From contig MFRN01000041.1 in NCBI GenBank assembly GCA_001784585.1, forward strand, positions 1-64,000: 64,000 nucleotides of DNA, written 5' to 3'. The position numbers were made by a program, and so were the translations under genes. This stretch comes from Candidatus Melainabacteria bacterium RIFCSPLOWO2_02_FULL_35_15 (GTDB lineage Bacteria; Cyanobacteriota; Vampirovibrionia; 2-02-FULL-35-15). Under the pieces are notes generated by a model. That model did not search any database and was not told the origin of the DNA. It worked only from the letters and a program-made list of their open reading frames with translations. Positions 5,902 through 64,000 of this stretch are shown in pieces (position 1 is the first letter of the stretch; each line of letters begins with the position of its first letter).

Positions 5902-6780
5902 TTATCTTAAGTTCTCATAAACCAGTCTGCTTATTTCCCTGATAAACTTTTGTCCATTTAGACTGTTAAACGGTCTTTTAACTACTATTGAAATAGTAAT
6001 TCTTTTTCCAAAAGGTAAATAAATAATTCCTGCATCACCCACGCAAATTCCAATTGTTCCTGTCTTATGAGCAAATCTGGTATATTTCCCAAGCCCTTTT
6101 TTAATAAGAGATTTATTTTCCACATCCATCAGTGTATTCTTTAAAATTCTTTTTGAGCTTTTACTTAAGAGATTTCCTTCAAGTGATTTTTCAAGAAGAA
6201 TTGCCAGATCACCGGGAGATGTTTTATTTGCACCTTTAAAGTCTCCAAGTAAAGTAACAAGTTTTGTATTTTTTAAGCCAAATACTGCAATTTGTTTATT
6301 TATAGAGCTTACGCCGCCCAAAAGATCAATAATCATATTTGCAGCAGTGTTATCACTGATTGTAAGCATTAATCTAAAAGCTTCTCTCAGTTTGATCTTC
6401 GTACCGGTTTTTTTTGTTCTAAGATATCCGGCTCCCTGAGCATAGTGATAATGCTTTAATGTAAGAATTCTATCCCAGGATATTTCTTTTTTATCAATTT
6501 TAATAAGCAAAATAACTGCAATAGGAATTTTGATTAGACTTGCAGCAGGAAAAATATAATCACTGTTTATATTTATTGGATTTTTAAACCATGATGGTTT
6601 TATACAAACTCCGCAGGTAAGACCTGGATATTGTTTTATTTTTGCATGAATTTCGGATATTAGTATATTGGTTGTATTTTTGTTTTCTGCATGAGCTGGC
6701 GCATGGTTAAATAGTAGATATAAAAAGCAAAATGAAATTAAAATGGACTTACAATTATAGGATTTATGTGGTTTATCCAC
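5902..6780 (-). CDS. Beta-lactamase-fold serine hydrolase, exported
   Basis: Class A beta-lactamase-family fold (PF13354). With a GTG start at 6780 the protein has 292 residues and a clear signal peptide ending APAHA. Active-site motifs are present: SLIK (Ser81, Lys84), SDN (142-144) and KTG (239-241). The omega-loop ExxLN carrying the deacylating Glu166 is not visible, so true penicillin hydrolysis is doubtful; a cell-wall-related serine hydrolase is equally possible. An in-frame ATG at 6882 would bury the signal peptide and overlap the divergent HAD gene by 35 bp, so I prefer the GTG. Confidence 0.8.
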   Translation of the reverse strand: MDKPHKSYNCKSILISFCFLYLLFNHAPAHAENKNTTNILISEIHAKIKQYPGLTCGVCIKPSWFKNPININSDYIFPAASLIKIPIAVILLIKIDKKEISWDRILTLKHYHYAQGAGYLRTKKTGTKIKLREAFRLMLTISDNTAANMIIDLLGGVSSINKQIAVFGLKNTKLVTLLGDFKGANKTSPGDLAILLEKSLEGNLLSKSSKRILKNTLMDVENKSLIKKGLGKYTRFAHKTGTIGICVGDAGIIYLPFGKRITISIVVKRPFNSLNGQKFIREISRLVYENLR

Positions 6781-9573: not shown

Positions 9574-10047
9574 TTATTTCGCATTGTGTACAGAATAATC
9601 AATCTGAGGAATATTTTTGAAAATTACTCTGCCACCAGCTTTAATCAGGTGTTTATCAGCAAATCCGCCATTTACTTCAATTACTTCAGTTACCGAAGAG
9701 TCGGAAGAATAAAGAATATTAGTCTGGTTAGGCATAGCATTTTTTATAATTTTTACAATTTTTCCCTTATTAATAAAAATCATATCCAGAGGAATTAAAG
9801 TATCTTTCATCCAGAAAGTTGTCTGTTTTCTTGGCCTGAAAACAAAAACCATTCCGCGGTTTTCAGCAAGGCCTGGTCTGTTCATTAAGCCTTTTTCTTT
9901 TTCTGCATCAGTCAGGGCAACTTCCAGAAAAACTTTTAAGTTTAGTTTTCCGACAAACTTTACAAAGCCTTCCTGAGCATTTGCAGAAATTATCGACGAT
10001 AAAAGTAAAACACAAATTAAAGCTGGAATTATTAATCGTTTAATCAT
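9574..10047 (-). CDS. Exported DUF192 protein
   Basis: A 157-residue protein with a signal peptide (hydrophobic residues ~6-22, cleavage after ANA). The rest is a DUF192 domain (PF02643): EVALTDAEKEKGLMNRPGL, then the VFRPRKQTTFWMKDTLIPLD stretch and the ending pattern VIEVNGGFADKHLIKAGG. The family is widespread, small and periplasmic or extracellular; the biochemical role is unknown. It sits 41 bp downstream of lnt and 9 bp upstream of nnr. Confidence 0.88.
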   Translation of the reverse strand: MIKRLIIPALICVLLLSSIISANAQEGFVKFVGKLNLKVFLEVALTDAEKEKGLMNRPGLAENRGMVFVFRPRKQTTFWMKDTLIPLDMIFINKGKIVKIIKNAMPNQTNILYSSDSSVTEVIEVNGGFADKHLIKAGGRVIFKNIPQIDYSVHNAK

Positions 10048-10088
10048 ATATTGTATTTTATACCCAGCTCTTCGTCAGTTCTGTTCTC

Positions 10089-11624
10089 CTACCATCCATA
10101 CTTACTATAAAAAGTTATCTTATTATTTGGATTTACCCAGTCAATTAACGTCCCCCGGGTATTAGGAATGGACTGATTTTTTATTTTACCGCTTTGATCA
10201 ATAAAAACAGAAGTTCCATTATTTGAAGATATAATGACAGGCCTTCTGTTTTCAACTGCTCTGAATACTGCAAATCCAAGAAAGTGTTGCTGTATACGAT
10301 AATTAGAAAACCAGCTTAAATCAGAGAGATTAATTAATAATTCTGCTCCCTGTAGCACCTGCTTTCTAATAATCGAAGGAAAAATTAACTCAAAACAAAT
10401 TGTTATTCCAACCTTGCCCAATGAAGTGTTAAATGGAATATTCTGCTTCCCTTCATAAAAACCTTCACCGATAGAAAATGATGCTAATTTTTTTAAAAAT
10501 TCAGGCAAAACAGATGACAGCGGTACAAATTCACCAAATGGCACCAGTCTTTCCTTTTCATAGTATGAAAAATCATTTCTGGCACCATTGAAATGAACTG
10601 CACAATTCGAGTATTTTTCATGATTTTTACAGTAGCTGCCAAAAATTAAATCTGACTGTTTTTTAAATGTTAAATCTTTAAACCATTTTCTGATAATTTG
10701 ATCATGAGTGAAATTAGTTGGCAGGGCACCCTCAGGTGCGACAAACAAAATCTCATCATTATTATTAATTAACTTTTCATAAGTTTTCCTTGCCAGATTT
10801 ATATCCAGTTTTATTCCACGTGTAGCTTTAATAGGAAGATTTCCCTGTAAGACACAGATTGTTTGAGATTTTCCAGAGAAAAGCTGCTGGTTTTTCCAGA
10901 ACAGATACAAACCTGAAGCGGTGCTTAAAAATATTAATGTTACTATAAAGGAAAAACTAATAAGGATAGAACTGAATTCTCCCGGATTCCTTGATATATA
11001 GCGATTGCTGATTTTTTCAATATTAAACAACCAGATCAGAAAATCTGTCAGAACCAAGTTAAAAAAAACAATTAAAAAGCTTATTAAAGCACTGCCAAAA
11101 TATTCTACAATCTGAATTAGATATAAATTTTTGTACTGGCTATATTCTATGAGTGTCCAGGGAAATCCATATAAAAACCTACACGCAGAAAATTTATTGA
11201 ATATAATAAGCCATAAGAAAGTTACTATCAGAATAAAAGGTATTCTGCCTTTATAAGGTATGAGAGAAAATTTTTTTACGACAAATACGCAAATGGCAAA
11301 CAAAATATAAAACAATGAATTAAAAATACTGACTAAAACAACTGCAAGAAATGAAATAAGATAACTTTGAAGAGTATTAAAACCCATCCAATTTAAAGGG
11401 TGAACTGAAAATAACCAGTGTAAATATGAAGCATTATAAGCAAAGCCAAACAAAAAAGGATATACAACTACATCTTTGATTTTCTTTGAAGTGTTTATAA
11501 TTATAAAAAGCGGCACTAGTCCTACCCATGCTATAAACCACAGATCATAACCAGGTGCACTAAAAGATAAAATAAATCCACTGAAAAAAATTAACAGTGC
11601 TTTTATAAAAGGATGATTAGACAT
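10089..11624 (-). CDS. lnt: Apolipoprotein N-acyltransferase
   Basis: Adds the third acyl chain to lipoproteins in the inner membrane. The 511-residue protein has about six or seven hydrophobic helices in its first 240 residues and then a nitrilase-like domain with the catalytic triad: Glu in FVAPEGALP, Lys in the YEKERLVPFGEF segment and Cys in ITICFELIFPS. Presence of Lnt implies triacylated lipoproteins, consistent with the lipobox protein at 55.0-55.7 kb. It is divergent from ruvC. Confidence 0.93.
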   Translation of the reverse strand: MSNHPFIKALLIFFSGFILSFSAPGYDLWFIAWVGLVPLFIIINTSKKIKDVVVYPFLFGFAYNASYLHWLFSVHPLNWMGFNTLQSYLISFLAVVLVSIFNSLFYILFAICVFVVKKFSLIPYKGRIPFILIVTFLWLIIFNKFSACRFLYGFPWTLIEYSQYKNLYLIQIVEYFGSALISFLIVFFNLVLTDFLIWLFNIEKISNRYISRNPGEFSSILISFSFIVTLIFLSTASGLYLFWKNQQLFSGKSQTICVLQGNLPIKATRGIKLDINLARKTYEKLINNNDEILFVAPEGALPTNFTHDQIIRKWFKDLTFKKQSDLIFGSYCKNHEKYSNCAVHFNGARNDFSYYEKERLVPFGEFVPLSSVLPEFLKKLASFSIGEGFYEGKQNIPFNTSLGKVGITICFELIFPSIIRKQVLQGAELLINLSDLSWFSNYRIQQHFLGFAVFRAVENRRPVIISSNNGTSVFIDQSGKIKNQSIPNTRGTLIDWVNPNNKITFYSKYGW

Positions 11625-55937: not shown

Positions 55938-56011
55938 CGGGCTGTAGTTTAGCTTGGTAGAACGCTACCTTGGGGTGGTAGAGGTCGTGGGTTCAAATCC
56001 CGCCAGCCCGA
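55938..56011 (+). tRNA. tRNA-Pro (GGG anticodon)
   Basis: Full cloverleaf: acceptor CGGGCTG/CAGCCCG, D-arm with GGTAGA, anticodon stem CTACC/GGTAG around loop TTGGGGT (anticodon GGG at positions 34-36), T-arm GTGGG-TTCAAAT-CCCGC, discriminator A; CCA is not encoded. A TATAAT at 55890-55895 is a possible -10 box. The gene is the attachment site of the element to its right: the recombinase gene is read antisense through nearly all of it. Confidence 0.96.
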
Positions 56012-57628
56012 TAGTTTGATACAAACATTTTCTAAAGTGCGTTTCTGTTCATCCGAAAGCATGTTTGGATCAGTTTTATCCAGTTCACACCTAAGATATT
56101 CTTCTTCGATAGCTGGATAGTCTTCAATGATTGGAATGAACCAATCGTTTGGTTCTATGTGCAGAATACTATCTTTTAATGAAAAGTTCACACCTAGAGC
56201 AGTAGCTATTGCTCTCTTCTTCTGTATATCACCATGCATAAAATGGTAATGCGCATAAGTGGCAAAGTTGAATGTTTTTTCAGAAAGTTCTAACCAATCT
56301 TGAGCTCTTTCCTCAGTTTCTCTTAAAAGTTCCTTCAATCTGTTAACCTCACCTACTAACAGAGTCTTTTTTTCAGTATATTCTTCATCAGATATTCGCT
56401 CGCTTAATCTTAGGTCTAATAATCTATCTAACTGAGCTTGTGCTGCTACTAAAGTCTTATGTCTTGTTTCATATATGTTAGTTCTATCTTCTATTTCTTT
56501 TTTATTGAGTTCCTTGTGCTTATTAAGTAAAAGAGTTTTAATCTCAGGTATGATTGTTAGTTTTTCTATTTCTCTTTCAATTTGTTCTTCTAGAACTTCA
56601 GCTTTAACTTGTTTTCTTTGTGAGCAATTATAATCTTTCTTTTTTCTAGTACAGTGGTAATAATGGTAATCTTTTAACGTATTTGTCTTTTTTATAAGCT
56701 TGGTCTTGATGATAGCAGTGATTGAACATCCGCATTCACCACAACGAATAAACCCAGTAAATGGAAACTCCCTTGTCTTTGGTCTTTGCTTTCCTTTTTT
56801 ACCTAGCATTACTTGAACTTTATCATATTCTTCAAGATTAATCATAGCTTCATGTTTTCCTGGCTCTGGTTGCTCTTGTCCTCTCCAAGTAATTATCCCA
56901 GCATAAAACGGATTAGTAAACATCGTATAAATAGCAGACCTGGATAGTTCTTTACCACCTAACTTTCTTGTTTTCTTTGTTTTAAATCCCCAGTTTTTAT
57001 TTACAATATCTAATATCTTATTTGCTGAATAATTACCAGTAAGCATTAAATCCCACATTTTTCTTACCAGTTCATACCTTTCAGGGTCTTTTTCAATATA
57101 GCTTTCACCAGTCTCAATATTTCTAAAATTTATGTAGCCAATTTGTGGACGATTAGGAAAAATCCCTTTCCTTAACTTAGCGTCATGTCCACGGATAACG
57201 TTCTTGCTTAAATCCATTACATACTGTGTTGCCATTCCACTTTCTACGCTAAAAAGTAAACCTGCATTTTCCGGGAAATATTCTCTTTCAATAGTTCTAA
57301 TTACTTTTATTATTCCTTTTTGAAGCATCCATTGAACCCTACCATTGTCCACAGGGTTTCTAGAAAGCCTATCCAGTTTCCAACAGAGTATTCCATCTGC
57401 CCTGCCGGATTCAATTTCTTTAAGCACTTTATAAAACTCAACTCTCTTGTCCGGGTCTTTAGCTGATTTAGATTCAGTAAACTTACTAACTACCTTATAA
57501 TCAAGTTCCTTAGCAAGTTTTTCAAGCCTATAAATTTGGTCATCGATGGACTGAACCTGCCTAGTGTCATCTTCTGTGCTTTTCCTTGCGTATATAATAT
57601 ATTTAACTTTTTGATTGTTTTTTAACAT
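55949..57628 (-). CDS. Large serine recombinase (integrase)
   Basis: A 559-residue site-specific recombinase. The N-terminal resolvase domain has the catalytic serine in YARKSTEDDTRQ (Ser17) and the LDRLSRNPVDNG region; a Recombinase domain (about 165-290) and a zinc ribbon (CGECGCSI and later CTRKKKDYNC, about 300-345) follow, then a coiled coil. The last 20 codons and the TAA stop are supplied by the antisense strand of tRNA-Pro, giving the tail GWRDLNPRPLPPQ. In the excised circle the C-terminus would differ. It very likely integrates the element at this tRNA. Confidence 0.93.
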   Translation of the reverse strand: MLKNNQKVKYIIYARKSTEDDTRQVQSIDDQIYRLEKLAKELDYKVVSKFTESKSAKDPDKRVEFYKVLKEIESGRADGILCWKLDRLSRNPVDNGRVQWMLQKGIIKVIRTIEREYFPENAGLLFSVESGMATQYVMDLSKNVIRGHDAKLRKGIFPNRPQIGYINFRNIETGESYIEKDPERYELVRKMWDLMLTGNYSANKILDIVNKNWGFKTKKTRKLGGKELSRSAIYTMFTNPFYAGIITWRGQEQPEPGKHEAMINLEEYDKVQVMLGKKGKQRPKTREFPFTGFIRCGECGCSITAIIKTKLIKKTNTLKDYHYYHCTRKKKDYNCSQRKQVKAEVLEEQIEREIEKLTIIPEIKTLLLNKHKELNKKEIEDRTNIYETRHKTLVAAQAQLDRLLDLRLSERISDEEYTEKKTLLVGEVNRLKELLRETEERAQDWLELSEKTFNFATYAHYHFMHGDIQKKRAIATALGVNFSLKDSILHIEPNDWFIPIIEDYPAIEEEYLRCELDKTDPNMLSDEQKRTLENVCIKLSGWRDLNPRPLPPQGSVLPS

Positions 57629-57669
57629 TCCTGTACAAAGCCCTCTCCAAGCGGATTTCAGGTATATAT

Positions 57670-57698
57670 TGTATAATGAGTTTTACACCAGAGTAAAA
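57670..57698 (-). promoter_or_regulatory. Candidate recombinase promoter with inverted-repeat operator
   Basis: On the minus strand a -35-like TTTACT (57697-57692) and a -10-like TATACA (57675-57670) are 16 bp apart. The inverted repeat TTTTAC (57681-57686) / GTAAAA (57693-57698) overlaps the -35 and spacer, a typical repressor position. Assignment is by pattern only. Confidence 0.4.
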
Positions 57699-57704
57699 TC
57701 TTTT

Positions 57705-58049
57705 TTATTCTCCTTCCATTCTTCTTTCATTTGTATATCCAAATGCTTTGTTTTGTGCTATAGAATAAGGATGGTTCCCTTCTACATCAATCAACTCATC
57801 AATAATTTGTTCAAAAATAGAATAGTCAGGAAGTTGTGCTAATACTTCTTTTTCTCTCTTTATTACTTCTTGAGCTTTTTCAAATAATTCTATATTTATT
57901 TCACCAAACCAAAAGTCTCTATTTCTTCGATTTGCCAAGTATCCTTCCTTAGGTAAGTCCTCTGACTCAATCTTGAAATCACCCATAAGTCCCCAGCCTC
58001 TGTCATTCTTAGATAGCCATACCTTTACTTTTTTCTTATTATTGTCCAT
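57705..58049 (-). CDS. Element hypothetical protein (114 residues)
   Basis: A soluble, charged protein with no family I recognise. The N-terminal third looks beta-rich (KVKVWLSKNDRGWGLMGDF) and the middle helical. A perfect AAAGGAGG site precedes the ATG at 58049. It is the last gene of the minus-strand replication cluster and lies just upstream of the recombinase. Confidence 0.65.
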   Translation of the reverse strand: MDNNKKKVKVWLSKNDRGWGLMGDFKIESEDLPKEGYLANRRNRDFWFGEINIELFEKAQEVIKREKEVLAQLPDYSIFEQIIDELIDVEGNHPYSIAQNKAFGYTNERRMEGE

Positions 58050-58086
58050 TTTTTCCTCCTTTAAGTTTTTACTACCTTTACATCAG

Positions 58087-58899
58087 TCATTTTGACTTCT
58101 TCTTCAATTTCTCCAGAGTTTCTCTTACTTGTTGCCTAACATTCTCAGGCATAGGTACACCTTCTTTTTGTGCCTCATTTAACATATTTCTTTGCTCCTC
58201 TATTTGCTTTTTGTCTTTTTCTTTTTGTATTTCAGATACATTTTTATAATCCAGATAGTCTTTCCAATTTTCAAACCAATTTCCCCCACTCTTTATAAAT
58301 CCCTTTTTAACAACATCACTTTTATTATAATTTTCTAAAGCAAGGTTAATCTGTCTAAAATCATCTTCATTTTTAACGCTAGATATAAAACATTCCATTG
58401 CCTTCTTCCTTCCATCCTTGTTTAAATACTTACCCCATATTTCCTCAAAAGAACTTTCCACGTCAAAACCAATACATTCATCTTCATTTTTATCTTTATC
58501 TATATTTTTATCTTCATCTTTATCTTCATCTCGTTCCGTAACAATTACGGAATGTCGTTTTGCTACTTGTGCTTTCTTTGTACTATCGTCAACAAGTTTT
58601 AACATTTCAGGTGCTTCCACTTTCAACATGTTTTCAGTTATTTCCCAACAGAGGTCAAGCTTCTCTCCAACATCTGTTAGAAAATCTCTCAACCTTCTTT
58701 TGTTAATTTTTAATGATCTGCACCACTCATTAATAGGCATTTCTCGATAACAGACATTAGGCTTATTTCTATCCATAGCCTGAGCTATCATTTCCAAAAT
58801 TAAGCACCAGCGTGCATAACCATTTGAACCATGCTTACTTAATACATATTTCCCTCTGTCAGAAATAGACATATCTGACATGTGTTTAAACCATTTCAT
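58087..58899 (-). CDS. Phage-type replication initiator-like protein (DUF4373-like)
   Basis: A 270-residue protein. Residues 1-100 (MKWFKHMSDMSISDRGKYVL, then GYARWCLILEMIAQAM) fit the N-terminal winged-helix of replisome organisers (DUF4373/Lin1244 type). A low-complexity Asp/Lys/Glu linker (about 125-145) leads to a second domain with the EEIWGKYLNKDGRKKAMECF and GGNWFENWKDYLDY patterns found at the ends of phage replication proteins. It overlaps the upstream 73-residue gene by 14 bp, so translation is coupled. It probably recruits the host replication machinery. Confidence 0.7.
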   Translation of the reverse strand: MKWFKHMSDMSISDRGKYVLSKHGSNGYARWCLILEMIAQAMDRNKPNVCYREMPINEWCRSLKINKRRLRDFLTDVGEKLDLCWEITENMLKVEAPEMLKLVDDSTKKAQVAKRHSVIVTERDEDKDEDKNIDKDKNEDECIGFDVESSFEEIWGKYLNKDGRKKAMECFISSVKNEDDFRQINLALENYNKSDVVKKGFIKSGGNWFENWKDYLDYKNVSEIQKEKDKKQIEEQRNMLNEAQKEGVPMPENVRQQVRETLEKLKKKSK

Positions 58900-59107
58900 T
58901 GTTTACACCCAAGTCAAGCATCAACTGCCCACTTTTAATTGGCTCTTTCATTTTCCTTGCTAATCTCCTTCTATTATTTTTTATTCTTCTTGCTCTATTA
59001 CATTTCTGCCTCAAAGAACGATCAGATTTTCCCTTAATCACAAACTCCATAGGATCGTGGTACTCTTTGCATTCATCACAATAGACAAACCCACATTCAT
59101 TCGTCAT
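58886..59107 (-). CDS. Small Cys/Arg-rich element protein (73 residues)
   Basis: Short basic protein with Cys residues in CGFVYCDEC and CNRAR, possibly a zinc finger, followed by an Arg/Lys-rich stretch (RRIKNNRRRLARKM) suited to nucleic-acid binding. A strong GAGGTGAT site precedes the ATG. It overlaps the replication protein gene by 14 bp. Confidence 0.6.
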   Translation of the reverse strand: MTNECGFVYCDECKEYHDPMEFVIKGKSDRSLRQKCNRARRIKNNRRRLARKMKEPIKSGQLMLDLGVNNEMV

Positions 59108-59119
59108 ATAATCACCTCT

Positions 59120-59335
59120 TCATTTGTTTTCATTTTCTAATTCAGGCGGTAAGCCTAACTCCTTTCTTCTTTCTTGTAATTTTTTATAACCTTCTCTTGT
59201 CATTGGGGAATATATCTCCTTCGTTAAAGCTAAAAATTTTGAATATATTGTCGAGGCCATCTCATAAGAAATTTCTTTTTTATAGTGTTTCTTATAGAGA
59301 TCTCGCAGATTTTGTATATCACCCTCTGAAAGCAT
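59120..59335 (-). CDS. Small helical element protein (71 residues)
   Basis: Entirely helical in appearance, beginning SEGDIQNLRDLYKKHYKKEI and ending in a Lys/Glu-rich tail. The shape (ISYEMASTIYSKFLALTKEI) resembles small conserved ORFs found next to recombinases in mobile elements, with no assigned function. It lies 12 bp upstream of the 73-residue gene in the same minus-strand cluster. Confidence 0.55.
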   Translation of the reverse strand: MLSEGDIQNLRDLYKKHYKKEISYEMASTIYSKFLALTKEIYSPMTREGYKKLQERRKELGLPPELENENK

Positions 59336-59394
59336 TTTTGAGACACACTCCTCTAATGGTGTCTGTAAGCACCTTTTCTGTGACCAAAGTTTAC

Positions 59395-59403
59395 TGATAT
59401 AAT
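59395..59403 (+). promoter_or_regulatory. Extended -10 promoter element
   Basis: TGATATAAT on the plus strand matches the extended -10 consensus (TG-n-TATAAT) exactly. No plus-strand gene follows; a strong terminator begins 23 bp downstream, so a transcript of about 40 nt is predicted. Confidence 0.4.
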
Positions 59404-59425
59404 TGGTTTGTTAGTTTAATTAGTT

Positions 59426-59448
59426 GCCCTGCAAAAGCAGGGCTTTTT
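59426..59448 (+). terminator. Rho-independent terminator
   Basis: Perfect 7-bp GC-rich stem GCCCTGC/GCAGGGC with an AAAA loop, followed by TTTTT on the plus strand. It sits right after the stop of the minus-strand 63-residue gene, for which the hairpin (without U-tract) could also act. Confidence 0.8.
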
Positions 59449-59449
59449 A

Positions 59450-59641
59450 TTATTGAACCTCTACTAACTCCTTTTTCTTATTTCGAGACCATTTAAGGTA
59501 GGCTTTTTTTAGAAGCAGTCTTAAGTAAGCTGAGGTTGATAATGAACTATCTATTGCCATTTCTTTAGCTATAGAATATGCTTCGTTACCGAGACACAGA
59601 CATTTAAGACTTTTGTCAGATGATCTAGTAATATTACTCAT
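59450..59641 (-). CDS. Ribbon-helix-helix-like small protein (63 residues)
   Basis: The ATG at 59641 has a strong AGGAGGG site, giving a 63-residue product; a longer in-frame reading to 59758 lacks support. The sequence (SLKCLCLGNEAYSIAKEMAI followed by TSAYLRLLLKKAYLKW) has the strand-helix-helix pattern of Arc/CopG regulators or antitoxins. It has no adjacent toxin. A DNA-binding role in element regulation is inferred. Confidence 0.6.
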   Translation of the reverse strand: MSNITRSSDKSLKCLCLGNEAYSIAKEMAIDSSLSTSAYLRLLLKKAYLKWSRNKKKELVEVQ

Positions 59642-59815
59642 CACTTTCCCTCCTGTTTTTAAATACACTCTATATTGAAGCACCATTAAGACAGGAAATA
59701 AATTGCAATTAAATGCCAGAGGGTGAAAAACAAACAAACTTAGAATACAGAGAATCATTCACAACCCTTGTAAACATTAGTTCTTGGATGGGTGAAAATC
59801 TCTACAAAGAGGGTC

Positions 59816-60802
59816 TTAATATTTGTTGCTGAGACGATTAAGTTCATAAGGATGAATATTAGGATGTTTTTTTACAAGTTCTAAAACAGCATTCTTAAAA
59901 TCTTCTTTCTTAAAATCTTTATACTTAATCATTAACTTCGCAAACTCTTTGTCATAACGCGATATCTTTGAAACTGGAATTAGGTTTAAAGACTTAGTAT
60001 CAATATAGGGAATGAAATCTTTGTCCTTCAAGTTCTTAAATGCTTGTATTTTCTTAAGCATTACTGATGATGTTTTATTTATTAATTCCTTCATATTTTC
60101 TATATAAGAATAAAGTTTATTAGAATCATAAGGAGAATTTAATGTCATATTTTTAAGGATATTTTGCAATTCTTTAATTCTTCGCATCAAAGGATTAACA
60201 AAATCTCTAATGTATATTTTTTTACAATCTTTACTATTAATGTTTTTCCTACATAACCCATCTTCCATTACAGTTTTTTTATGCTTTTCAAAGCAATGCT
60301 TACATATACTTAATATCGAACTTTTCACTAGTAATGTTTGGTTTTTATTTTTAAACTCTGAATGAACATAACCTTTAGGGAAAAGATTTGCAGTAAGTTC
60401 TAAGTCATCCAACCAAGAATCTATAATTGGGAATGAATTCTCTACTATTAACTTTCTGTGTCTTTTTTTTAACAACCCTGAATAAATTGAATGCAAAATT
60501 GAAGATCTTAAAACTTTATTTATAAACAGTAATCTTGGAAGATTATTCAGGTCTTCCTCACTAAGCATTTCCGCTTTATTCATTAAGGATATTTCAAAAG
60601 GGAAAATCACTTCATAATAATTAATAATATTTTCAATTACAAAAAAATAATTATAATCATTATCAATTAAAGTCTTATCTAATCTAAAGAAATCATTGAA
60701 TGAAAGATTATTTTCTTGCGTCTTTATATCGTTATCCATCTTTTCAATTACATTGTACATAAAACGCATATATAGATTATTCGTATTTAAATATTGGGAC
60801 AT
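59816..60802 (-). CDS. Unknown element protein (328 residues)
   Basis: No family recognised. The protein is Lys/Asn/Ile-rich and largely helical, without signal peptide or membrane segment. A Cys cluster (CKHC at about 166, then CRKNINSKDC about 20 residues on) could bind zinc. Base composition looks even more AT-rich than its neighbours, which fits recent transfer. It lies between the ribbon-helix-helix gene and the XRE gene on the same strand. Confidence 0.6.
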   Translation of the reverse strand: MSQYLNTNNLYMRFMYNVIEKMDNDIKTQENNLSFNDFFRLDKTLIDNDYNYFFVIENIINYYEVIFPFEISLMNKAEMLSEEDLNNLPRLLFINKVLRSSILHSIYSGLLKKRHRKLIVENSFPIIDSWLDDLELTANLFPKGYVHSEFKNKNQTLLVKSSILSICKHCFEKHKKTVMEDGLCRKNINSKDCKKIYIRDFVNPLMRRIKELQNILKNMTLNSPYDSNKLYSYIENMKELINKTSSVMLKKIQAFKNLKDKDFIPYIDTKSLNLIPVSKISRYDKEFAKLMIKYKDFKKEDFKNAVLELVKKHPNIHPYELNRLSNKY

Positions 60803-60945
60803 TTCTAAATCTTATATACAAACTTATTATGAAAGTAGTATTATTTCAGTGTATAAATCCATACGCGGACATTCCTATCGATCAAACTATGTCTTCTTAT
60901 GCCTTGAACACAGTTCGATTTTTAGACAATTTTAACCTTGATAAA

Positions 60946-61170
60946 CTACTCAATACTTTTCAATAAATGTGAAGGCTTAACATCTAAAGCCTTTGCTAAT
61001 CTAATAAGATTTTTTATTCCAAAATTTCGTGTGCCGAGTTCTATATCTGAAACATAGGTTCTATCCAGCCCTGCTTCTGCACCAAGTTTTTCTTGAGAGA
61101 ATCCTTTCTTTTCTCTTAATGCTCTTATTATTTCCCCTATTAGTTTTAAATCTTTGTCAGGCTTAGACAT
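60946..61170 (-). CDS. XRE-family repressor (74 residues)
   Basis: Single-domain helix-turn-helix protein of the Cro/cI type: IGEIIRALREKKGFSQEKLG, then AEAGLDRTYVSDIELGTRN with the recognition helix, and LIRLAKALDVKPSHLL. No peptidase or ligand domain. Inverted TGAGGAC half-sites start 19 bp upstream of its ATG, indicating autoregulation. It may control the element or the restriction genes. Confidence 0.9.
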   Translation of the reverse strand: MSKPDKDLKLIGEIIRALREKKGFSQEKLGAEAGLDRTYVSDIELGTRNFGIKNLIRLAKALDVKPSHLLKSIE

Positions 61171-61188
61171 ATAGCCATATTTTCACTG

Positions 61189-61285
61189 TGAGGACTTTGC
61201 GTCTACGGACAATAGTCCTCAGCATTGGCTCAATACGCACATTTTTGCTTAAATACAAAAGCATAGTAATTGCCCTAATGAGGAC
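61189..61285. promoter_or_regulatory. Operator region with three TGAGGAC half-sites
   Basis: TGAGGACT (61189-61196) and its exact inverse AGTCCTCA (61214-61221) form an inverted repeat, with a nested GTC/GAC. A third direct half-site TGAGGAC lies at 61279-61285. All are in the divergent interval between the XRE gene and the GIY-YIG gene, the expected place for an autoregulated switch. Confidence 0.55.
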
Positions 61286-61364
61286 ATTGTTCTTGAGTGG
61301 AATATTAATAAAAACAAAGCAGAGATACTTACTTAAATAAGGTCACAATTTTGGCAATTATTAT

Positions 61365-62111
61365 ATGAATGCACTTTCACAAGCTACTATTGAAAAGTTG
61401 CAGTACTACGTTTATTTATTATGTGATCCAAGAACCAATAACAGTCCTTTTTATATTGGCAAAGGGCATGGCAATAGAATTAATGAACATTTGCTGGGAG
61501 CGCTTGAAAGCGATGGCAATAACGAAGAAGCAAAAATTACAACAATCAAGGAAATACAAGCTGCAGGACTCAGCGTTAGGCTTATTATTCTACGTCATGG
61601 GTTAACAGAAAAAGAAGCATTTGAGATTGAGAGTGCAATGATCGATTTCATTGGCAAAGAAAATCTTACGAACATAGTTCTGGGGCATTACTCAACGGAA
61701 AGAGGCATTATGACCTTGCAGGAAATCAAAGTTAAATACGAAGCAGAAGATGCAATTTTTGATGAACCGGTAATTCTCATTAATATTAATGAATTATATA
61801 ATCAAAAAATGCAAATGAATCCTGTTGAAATATATGAAGCAACTAGAAAGTATTGGAAAATAAATCTAGACCGTACCAATAAAATCCGAATAGCGTGTTC
61901 TGTTTACAAGGGTATTATACGAGAAGTGTTTATTATAGATCGTTGGTATTTGTCAACAGTGCAAATAGGCAGGAAAGAGTTTGAGGGTAGAGTTGCAGAG
62001 AAAGAGATACGAGATAAATACATTTACAAATCTGTTGAAAAATATTGGAAGCAAGGAAGTCAAAATCCTATAAAATATGTTGGGCTCAAAGGTGGTTTAC
62101 TAAAAGCTTAA
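61365..62111 (+). CDS. GIY-YIG nuclease-domain protein (LEM-3-like)
   Basis: A 248-residue protein. Residues ~10-105 carry a GIY-YIG nuclease fold: YYVYLLCDPRTNNSPFYIGK with the YIGKG motif, the Arg in HGNRINEHL, and the glutamate in AFEIESAMIDFIG. This variant resembles LEM-3/ANKLE1-type domains found in bacteria, from memory. The C-terminal half (about 125-248) is a separate domain that I do not recognise. The last 4 bp overlap the convergent small-terminase-like gene. Confidence 0.75.
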   Translation: MNALSQATIEKLQYYVYLLCDPRTNNSPFYIGKGHGNRINEHLLGALESDGNNEEAKITTIKEIQAAGLSVRLIILRHGLTEKEAFEIESAMIDFIGKENLTNIVLGHYSTERGIMTLQEIKVKYEAEDAIFDEPVILININELYNQKMQMNPVEIYEATRKYWKINLDRTNKIRIACSVYKGIIREVFIIDRWYLSTVQIGRKEFEGRVAEKEIRDKYIYKSVEKYWKQGSQNPIKYVGLKGGLLKA

Positions 62112-62572
62112 TCCTTGATTTTTCTTAGTTCTTTAATTTGCCTAACAGATGAACCACCAAGTAATGGTTTAACTTCTACCTGCCCTGAATGCTCAGTTTT
62201 AGCTCTTTTAACTAATTCTCCAGTAATTTTACCTTCGACTTTATGGCATTCGATAATTGCTCTTGCCGCTGCAATAACTTCTATATTCTTTGTAGAACCA
62301 ACCATTAAATCATCAAGTCGTTTTTCTAAGTTCCTGGTCTTCTCTAAAACAGTCTTTATCTCTTCTTTTGTTTCTTGTTTTATCGTAGAAGCAATTTCAG
62401 TGTAAATCCGGTGTACGTTATTGTCTTTCTCAGGTTTCCAATTTTTACGCAGAGATTTGACCTTTATATTATTCACTGGCACTCTTGATTTATCTCGAGC
62501 TCGAATATAAGAGCCAGTATTTTTGTAAGTCTCTTCTGCAATGATCCACTGTTCTTTTGTATATTTAGCCAT
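62108..62572 (-). CDS. Small-terminase-like protein
   Basis: A 154-residue protein with an N-terminal helix-turn-helix (YKNTGSYIRARDKSRVPVNN), a long central coiled coil (TKEEIKTVLEKTRNLEKRLD) and the ending AKTEHSGQVEVKPLLGG. This layout and the Thr-Glu-His-Ser-Gly tail recall phage terminase small subunits, which recognise packaging sites. No large terminase or capsid gene is in the window. A different DNA-binding role is possible. Confidence 0.5.
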   Translation of the reverse strand: MAKYTKEQWIIAEETYKNTGSYIRARDKSRVPVNNIKVKSLRKNWKPEKDNNVHRIYTEIASTIKQETKEEIKTVLEKTRNLEKRLDDLMVGSTKNIEVIAAARAIIECHKVEGKITGELVKRAKTEHSGQVEVKPLLGGSSVRQIKELRKIKD

Positions 62573-62734
62573 TTGTATTTATATTACAGCGAGTAGATCT
62601 TTTCATAGTGTTTTTTAGTATGCGTTAATTATGCTTACATTACACGTACTTCTAAGCACCTTATACTAAAGGCTAACTTTTTTAGTACGGATATAAGAAA
62701 TTGATCTTTTTACAGTTTATATACATCTGAATGA

Positions 62735-62854
62735 TTAAAAACTGCTCACCCAGATGATCCCCGGTGGCCACAGAACGCATTAATACATGGCCGTTTTGAT
62801 GAAAGCTATGCTTGGCGTGGTTTCTGTTTGATTCTGATGCTAGAAGCTTATTAA
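62735..62854 (+). pseudogene. 3' gene remnant (39 codons)
   Basis: An open frame without a start, ending with TAA at 62852-62854, contains a well-formed protein tail: HPDDPRWPQNALIHGRFDES, then YAWRGFCLILMLEAY. It is visibly more GC-rich than the flanks, and the upstream frame is closed by TGA. I do not recognise the parent family. It looks like the surviving end of a gene disrupted before the restriction locus arrived. Confidence 0.4.
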
Positions 62855-62905
62855 TTCAGTCTATACTGTCAATTTTTCAAAAATCATCAAAATATGCCTA
62901 AAATT

Positions 62906-62921
62906 GGATGAAATTTCATCC
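62906..62921. promoter_or_regulatory. 16-bp perfect palindrome (operator) upstream of hsdS
   Basis: GGATGAAATTTCATCC is its own reverse complement. It directly abuts the -35 hexamer at 62922, the classic position for a regulator binding site controlling the restriction-modification genes. Confidence 0.6.
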
Positions 62922-62950
62922 TTGACATTTTTTATTGAGTGCAGTATGCT
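62922..62950 (+). promoter_or_regulatory. Promoter of hsdS-hsdM
   Basis: A consensus -35 TTGACA (62922-62927), a 17-bp spacer and -10 TATGCT (62945-62950). The expected start site, six to seven bases further, coincides with the hsdS ATG at 62957, so the mRNA would be leaderless. Confidence 0.65.
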
Positions 62951-62956
62951 ATCTAC

Positions 62957-63553
62957 ATGCAGTCAAAACTACAAAGCATAGCTGACGTCTCTTCCATTTC
63001 TTCAGGCTATACATTCAGGGGACCTGTAGAAGCTGAAATTACGGGCGACATTTTTGTTGTACAAGGAAAGAATCTAATTGCTAATGCAGAGCTTTTTGAT
63101 ACAGCTAACTTTTCTAGGGTTTCTTCTATAGGAATTCGCAACCCTTATTTTTTGCAGCATAATGATGTACTTCTTACATCAAGAGGATCAGGCTTAGGTA
63201 CTTTTCGATCTAGTTTATTCACATCTGATAAGAAAAACGTTATAGCATCCTCCTCAGTAATTATTATTCGCTCTAAAGATATTACTGTTATTCCAAAATA
63301 TATTTCTTTATATCTTAACTCACCAGAAGGGCAGCAAGACTTACTTCAAATTGTTACAGGAGGATCTTACATACAAAGTCTATTAGTGAAGAACCTATCA
63401 GATCTTCTCATTCCAATTCCCCCTTTGCACATTCAAAAATCTATTGTCGCTCTTCAGGAAAATGTCTTTGAGCAAGAAAAGTTATTAAAAAGGAGGCAAA
63501 AAATTCAGCAAAACTTGGTTGATGCAAGTTTTATGAATTTGATTAATAAATAA
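62957..63553 (+). CDS. hsdS: Type I restriction specificity subunit, half-length
   Basis: Determines the DNA target of a type I restriction-modification complex. From the ATG at 62957 it has 198 residues, one target-recognition domain (IADVSSISSGYTFRGPVEAE onward, QHNDVLLTSRGSGLG) and one conserved helix region (IPIPPLHIQKSIVALQ with a coiled coil). Classic HsdS has two such halves in ~400 residues; half-size subunits can act as dimers recognising a palindromic target. A GTG at 62939 is possible but lies inside the promoter. hsdM follows by 1 bp. Confidence 0.85.
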   Translation: MQSKLQSIADVSSISSGYTFRGPVEAEITGDIFVVQGKNLIANAELFDTANFSRVSSIGIRNPYFLQHNDVLLTSRGSGLGTFRSSLFTSDKKNVIASSSVIIIRSKDITVIPKYISLYLNSPEGQQDLLQIVTGGSYIQSLLVKNLSDLLIPIPPLHIQKSIVALQENVFEQEKLLKRRQKIQQNLVDASFMNLINK

Positions 63554-63554
63554 T

Positions 63555-64000
63555 ATGATTACAAAAACTAAATATACACAAGAGAATCTAAATAAAATTC
63601 TTTGGGATGCTGCAGATTCATCTAGAACTCAAGTTGATGCAGGAATATATAAAGATTATGTTCTTGCCATGCTTTTCTTCAAATACTTAAGTGATTTGTC
63701 CAAAAAGAAACACGAAGAGTATAAAAAGCGTTTTGGAAGTGATGAAAAACGTATTGAAGAGAAGATGAAACTAGACCGCTTTTATATTCCACCAAAATCA
63801 TCCTTTGATTACATCTATTCAATTATTGAAGAGGATAACTTAGGTGAAGAATTAAATAAAGCTCTCCACCGAATTGAAGATGCAAACAAACAAAAACTGG
63901 ATGGTGTATTTAGTGTGGATTTCAATTCAGAATCAACACTTGGAAAACTTGATGAGAGAAATAAAATGCTTCGACATTTAGTTAAAGATTTTGCAAAAAT
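63555..64000 (+). CDS. hsdM: Type I restriction modification subunit HsdM (5' part)
   Basis: Starts with ATG at 63555, one base after the hsdS stop, and runs off the window after ~148 codons. The visible part is the HsdM N-terminal helical domain: LNKILWDAADSSRTQVDAG, YKDYVLAMLFFKYLSDL, and the downstream LDEKxR-type region (STLGKLDERNKMLRHLVKDF). The catalytic methyltransferase motifs lie outside the window, as would an hsdR gene. The order S then M is less usual than M then S. Confidence 0.85.
   Translation, partial: MITKTKYTQENLNKILWDAADSSRTQVDAGIYKDYVLAMLFFKYLSDLSKKKHEEYKKRFGSDEKRIEEKMKLDRFYIPPKSSFDYIYSIIEEDNLGEELNKALHRIEDANKQKLDGVFSVDFNSESTLGKLDERNKMLRHLVKDFAK

Follow-up and report, generated by a model that had tools for sequence, protein, structure and literature searches.

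An integrase that swaps its C-terminal tail on integration at tRNA genes, a design that recurs across many little-studied bacteria and may act as a built-in switch

Reconstruction of a mobile element and comparison of its integrase with homologs show that the large serine integrase of this element ends in sequence read antisense from a host tRNA-Pro(GGG) gene, and that integration separates the gene from its own conserved tail, which is left at the far end of the element. The locus lies in the 64,000-nucleotide stretch analysed here (the window), which corresponds to positions 1 to 64,000 of contig MFRN01000041.1 (C41) in the 45-contig genome of Candidatus Melainabacteria bacterium RIFCSPLOWO2_02_FULL_35_15 (G000). 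The same antisense overlap with a tRNA gene is found in 65 of 81 related integrases, mostly from Patescibacteria, and a conserved V-R-T...I-P-(D/N)-L tail sits at the element's far end, in frame, beside a short core matching the occupied tRNA. The exchange of tails may act as a switch between integrated and circular states, although an effect on activity is inferred rather than shown.

The integrase ORF is 559 aa in length and carries the domains of a large serine recombinase (PF00239, PF07508 and PF13408, all above cut-off), and ARAGORN calls a single intact tRNA-Pro(GGG) gene overlapping its 3′ end on the opposite strand (Table 1). The initial annotation correctly described an integrase whose C-terminus and stop codon are encoded antisense by the tRNA gene, but it had the frame running through the whole tRNA, whereas the ORF enters from the tRNA 3′ end and stops 11 nt short of the tRNA 5′ end. 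In addition, the full tRNA-derived tail is SGWRDLNPRPLPPQGSVLPS, followed by the stop codon, which is longer than the GWRDLNPRPLPPQ given in that annotation. The window's tRNA-Pro differs from that of its genus but is 99% identical to one in another genus (window gene and locus L025 of genome G009), suggesting horizontal replacement of the whole tRNA gene.

Table 1. Coordinates of the integrase, its target and the associated element (window positions unless prefixed C41)
Feature	Position	Strand	Remarks	Basis
tRNA-Pro(GGG)	55938..56011	+	intact; target site, B half of attL	ARAGORN
Large serine integrase, integrated form	55949..57628	-	559 aa	ORF calling; Pfam domains
Integrase codons inside the tRNA	56011..55949	-	21 codons including TAA	ORF and ARAGORN coordinates
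Integrase codons 1-541	56006..57628	-	shared by integrated and circular forms	circle reconstruction
tRNA-encoded tail	55949..56005	-	WRDLNPRPLPPQGSVLPS plus TAA; present only in the integrated form	ORF translation; circle reconstruction
attL core	56006..56011		GCCCGA, last 6 nt of the tRNA gene; crossover probably within CCGA	circle reconstruction; comparison with genome G002
attR core	C41:72026-72031		GCCCGA; outside the window; native tail encoded on the - strand directly left of it	circle reconstruction
Part of the element inside the window	56012..64000		element ends at C41:72031, outside the window	circle reconstruction; empty-site match to genome G010
Cargo: start of a type I restriction-modification locus	62939..64000	+	HsdS-like gene, then HsdM	PADLOC

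The second attachment site of the element was located in the same contig as the integrase, beyond the window. Removal of the resulting 16,020-bp element predicts an empty site with the sequence ...CCAGCCCGACGTTTATCTTAACCAAAAAT..., and genome G010, of another genus, has nearly this sequence uninterrupted after its tRNA-Pro. In the reconstructed circle the integrase is 566 aa long, with residues 1-541 shared between the two forms, followed by a different 25-residue tail, LRYKVRTKLMEHKGHIYIPDLAPAA, in place of the 18 tRNA-encoded residues of the integrated form. The proposal in the initial annotation that excision would change the protein end is therefore supported, as the second attachment site was found and the reconstructed attP does not restore the same C-terminus. 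The circle is nevertheless a reconstruction, since searches for a free circular form in plasmids, phages and IMG/VR found none. The array at tRNA-Pro also holds several tail/core copies, so that excision could use a site other than the nearest. A 19-bp exact repeat on contig C20 (C20:6694) would give the tail GWRGTKN, but it lies on another contig, next to an older tail/core copy, and the nearer same-contig site with an intact in-frame tail is preferred. Within the element, the cargo is a type I restriction-modification locus with a CBASS-like oligonucleotide cyclase gene between its subunits (locus L018, 8056-15601, with the cyclase gene at 9876-10757).

The overlap of integrase and tRNA is not a chance occurrence at one locus. 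In the same bacterial family, eight integrase loci, including that of the window, run antisense into a tRNA 3′ end, with seven tRNA types represented: Pro (twice), Ser, Trp, Arg, His, Asp and Thr. A ninth, more distant copy (locus L048) does not. The tRNA-Thr(TGT) gene (locus L021, 3157-3367, - strand, genome G001) is interrupted in its anticodon loop by a group I intron (RF00028), and the integrase tail reads on into the intron. A scan of public genomes returned 80 loci, mainly from Patescibacteria but also from Bacteroidetes and others, and a viral scan returned one more. In 65 of these 81, the integrase ORF overlaps an ARAGORN-called tRNA on the opposite strand, covering 17 tRNA genes by anticodon, of which tRNA-His is the commonest with 25. 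Several of the remaining loci have tRNA-like tails without an ARAGORN call. The tRNA-derived tails share an RDSNPRP frame, but this follows from a fixed crossover position and is not taken as evidence of selection on those tails.

Far ends of elements in G002, in C41 of G000 and in contig C20 share a sequence that, when read on the integrase strand, encodes ...TKLMEHKGHIYIPDLAPAA and a stop codon, or close variants. The same motif lies at far ends of elements at tRNA-Trp, His, Arg and Ser in other genera, and in many Patescibacteria. An HMM of the tail gave hits above 12 bits only on the integrase strand, and a search of the 48 genomes behind the loci found a match at E <= 1 in 44, most of them well below 1e-3. 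In G002, a second tail copy (28011) carries a 2-nt frameshift, but the copy nearest its integrase (26547) is in frame. Some tail copies (C20 (locus L017) around 6578-6620 and C41 around 72845-72885) contain a palindromic insertion of about 42 nt that sits in frame (VSRSATLSEPRPERAG), like palindromic elements inserted into genes. At the far ends, the tail is directly preceded by a few nucleotides that match the 3′ end of the tRNA occupied by the same element, in the frame that continues the integrase, and the crossover therefore sits at the tRNA acceptor end. In 32 attL/attR pairs, with cores of 3-10 nt, the in-frame core match to the element's own tRNA averages 6.25 nt, compared with 2.70 nt for mispairs (0 of 20,000 permutations).

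Five Bacteroidetes or Chitinophagaceae homologs with no tRNA nearby (loci L107, L131, L133, L139 and L149) carry the motif simply as the contiguous C-terminus of the integrase. It is thus very unlikely that the tail is a separate small gene at the element end: although some copies contain an in-frame ATG or GTG, no start position is shared by all copies. The tail's codons also show selection at the protein level. In 20 tails, Ile and Pro of the IP motif are invariant (20/20 each) while three Ile codons and all four Pro codons are used, Thr is conserved in 19/20, and Tyr in 18/20 with both codons used. Differences by codon position over VRT...L are 1134, 664 and 1707, which is the pattern of coding sequence. 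An alternative is that the far end is conserved only as DNA, as the P arm of attP bound by the integrase, with an incidental reading frame. In support of this, GTTAGAAC, which encodes VRT, is conserved as DNA (AGA in 18 of 20 Arg codons, GTT in 16 of 20), as expected if these codons double as part of the roughly 25-bp attP half-site that a serine integrase contacts (PMC3783163). However, the YIPDL codons lie beyond that reach and vary mainly at synonymous positions (codons 15-21 differ 0.297, 0.096 and 0.579 by position). Conservation as DNA probably applies as well, but to the first codons only, and we consider this alternative improbable as a full account. Just upstream of the core in Patescibacteria (for example L074 and L077), integrase 3′ ends encode in frame a near-perfect inverted repeat such as ACAGAGGCTCTCGCCTCTGT, which could be an attP-arm or regulatory site.

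AlphaFold2 models of two relatives suggest what the exchange may do to the protein. In the native-type protein L133, for which the best Foldseek matches are serine integrase-DNA complexes, a C-terminal helix is predicted at residues 515-543 with mean confidence of about 84-91 per block, and the start of the tail is placed within it. In the window protein the predicted helix ends at residue 540, and residues 542-559 have confidence below 50. Integration is thus predicted to shorten a C-terminal helix and add a disordered tail, although this is a comparison between different proteins. It remains possible, but in our view unlikely, that the overlap is a by-product of compactness, with a dispensable tail and two forms that work equally well. 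Element genomes are compact, streptococcal IMEs of one kind have the site either inside or beside the integrase gene, and several integrated forms stop within a few codons of the junction. On the other hand, the tail keeps its invariant residues with free third positions across phyla, and stays in frame in the far ends of the 32 elements.

We are confident that the best explanation is a site-specific mobile element whose large serine integrase carries attP inside the 3′ end of its own gene. In the circle, the gene reads through the short core into the other element end and encodes the full protein, with a tail containing VRT...YIPDL, and this form presumably integrates the element at the 3′ end of a tRNA gene. 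Integration cuts the gene at the core and moves the last 25 codons to the far end of the element, and the ORF takes an arbitrary tail from the tRNA antisense strand until a stop occurs, while the tRNA stays intact because the crossover is at its extreme 3′ end. We think it most likely that the integrated form is less active or altered in direction, which would stabilise the integrated state, but this step is inferred, as is the return of the full form on excision or when a tandem copy supplies a native tail. A native tail can also be regained when elements sit in tandem: in locus L176 (G290:C7), a different serine recombinase reads in frame into the tail lying upstream of the L079 integrase. 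More tentatively, this widespread family may use tail exchange as built-in control of direction, in which the full-length circular form integrates, the tRNA-tailed form is locked or biased, and tandem integration or arrays of tail-bearing cassettes re-arm the enzyme by giving it a new native tail.

The coupling of integrase C-terminus to integration state, suggested in the initial annotation to be rarely considered, has been noted before. In phage Mx8 of Myxococcus, attP lies inside the gene of the tyrosine integrase IntP, and integration replaces 112 C-terminal residues by 13 (PMC4701971), with the integrated form reported to be less active (Tojo 1996; Magrini 1999; as described in PMC4383910 and PMC4701971). 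Mx8 is a single phage, while here a conserved tail is exchanged in a serine family across many phyla. Archaeal “suicidal” SSV-type integrases are also split on integration into two parts at the element's ends, and self-disrupting recombinases have been called exclusively archaeal (PMC8371274). However, these are tyrosine integrases in which the part split off carries the catalytic domain, whereas here only a C-terminal helix and tail are lost, and the resolvase domain (11-155) stays in the integrated form. Streptococcal ICEs in rumA and IMEs in snf2 have serine integrases with the att site inside their own gene, but target protein-coding genes (PMC4701971, PMC5357655). The tRNA-targeting islands of Islander insert, as here, at the 3′ end of a tRNA gene that stays intact, but have tyrosine integrases and a recognisable displaced tRNA fragment (PMC4383910), whereas only 6 nt of the tRNA are repeated at the C41 far end. 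The Islander study (2014) stated that serine integrases were not known to target tRNA genes. The principle is therefore known, but a broad tRNA-targeting serine family with a conserved swapped tail recurring across phyla appears to be undescribed, with no account of tRNA-targeting serine integrases in Patescibacteria found among the open-licence papers searched.

In this family, integrase entries that end in a tRNA-antisense peptide (RDxNPRP type) are integrated forms whose other C-terminus lies kilobases away, and such entries would mislead anyone cloning them as genome-editing tools. The family also gives a large comparative set in which core, tRNA target and native tail can be read directly from sequence, shows serine integrases sitting at tRNA genes on a broad scale, and makes the control of direction by serine integrases testable in a system where the protein itself records the DNA state. 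Several tail and core copies often lie 0.7-4 kb apart on one side of a tRNA (C41:72010 and 72842 (L018); C20 (L017) 3872 and 6576; L041 277, 1779 and 3630; L040; L039; G301:C71; G309:C55; G328:C5), in some genomes (G001, G003) with no integrase next to that tRNA. These look like arrays of small non-autonomous cassettes, integron-like but built on a serine integrase. A second, different element is found at the same tRNA in G002, where a 5′ half of tRNA-Pro lies 7.4 kb upstream of the complete copy (locus L022, 4461-4504 and 11928-12003), with an ORF resembling a tyrosine integrase just upstream of that copy.
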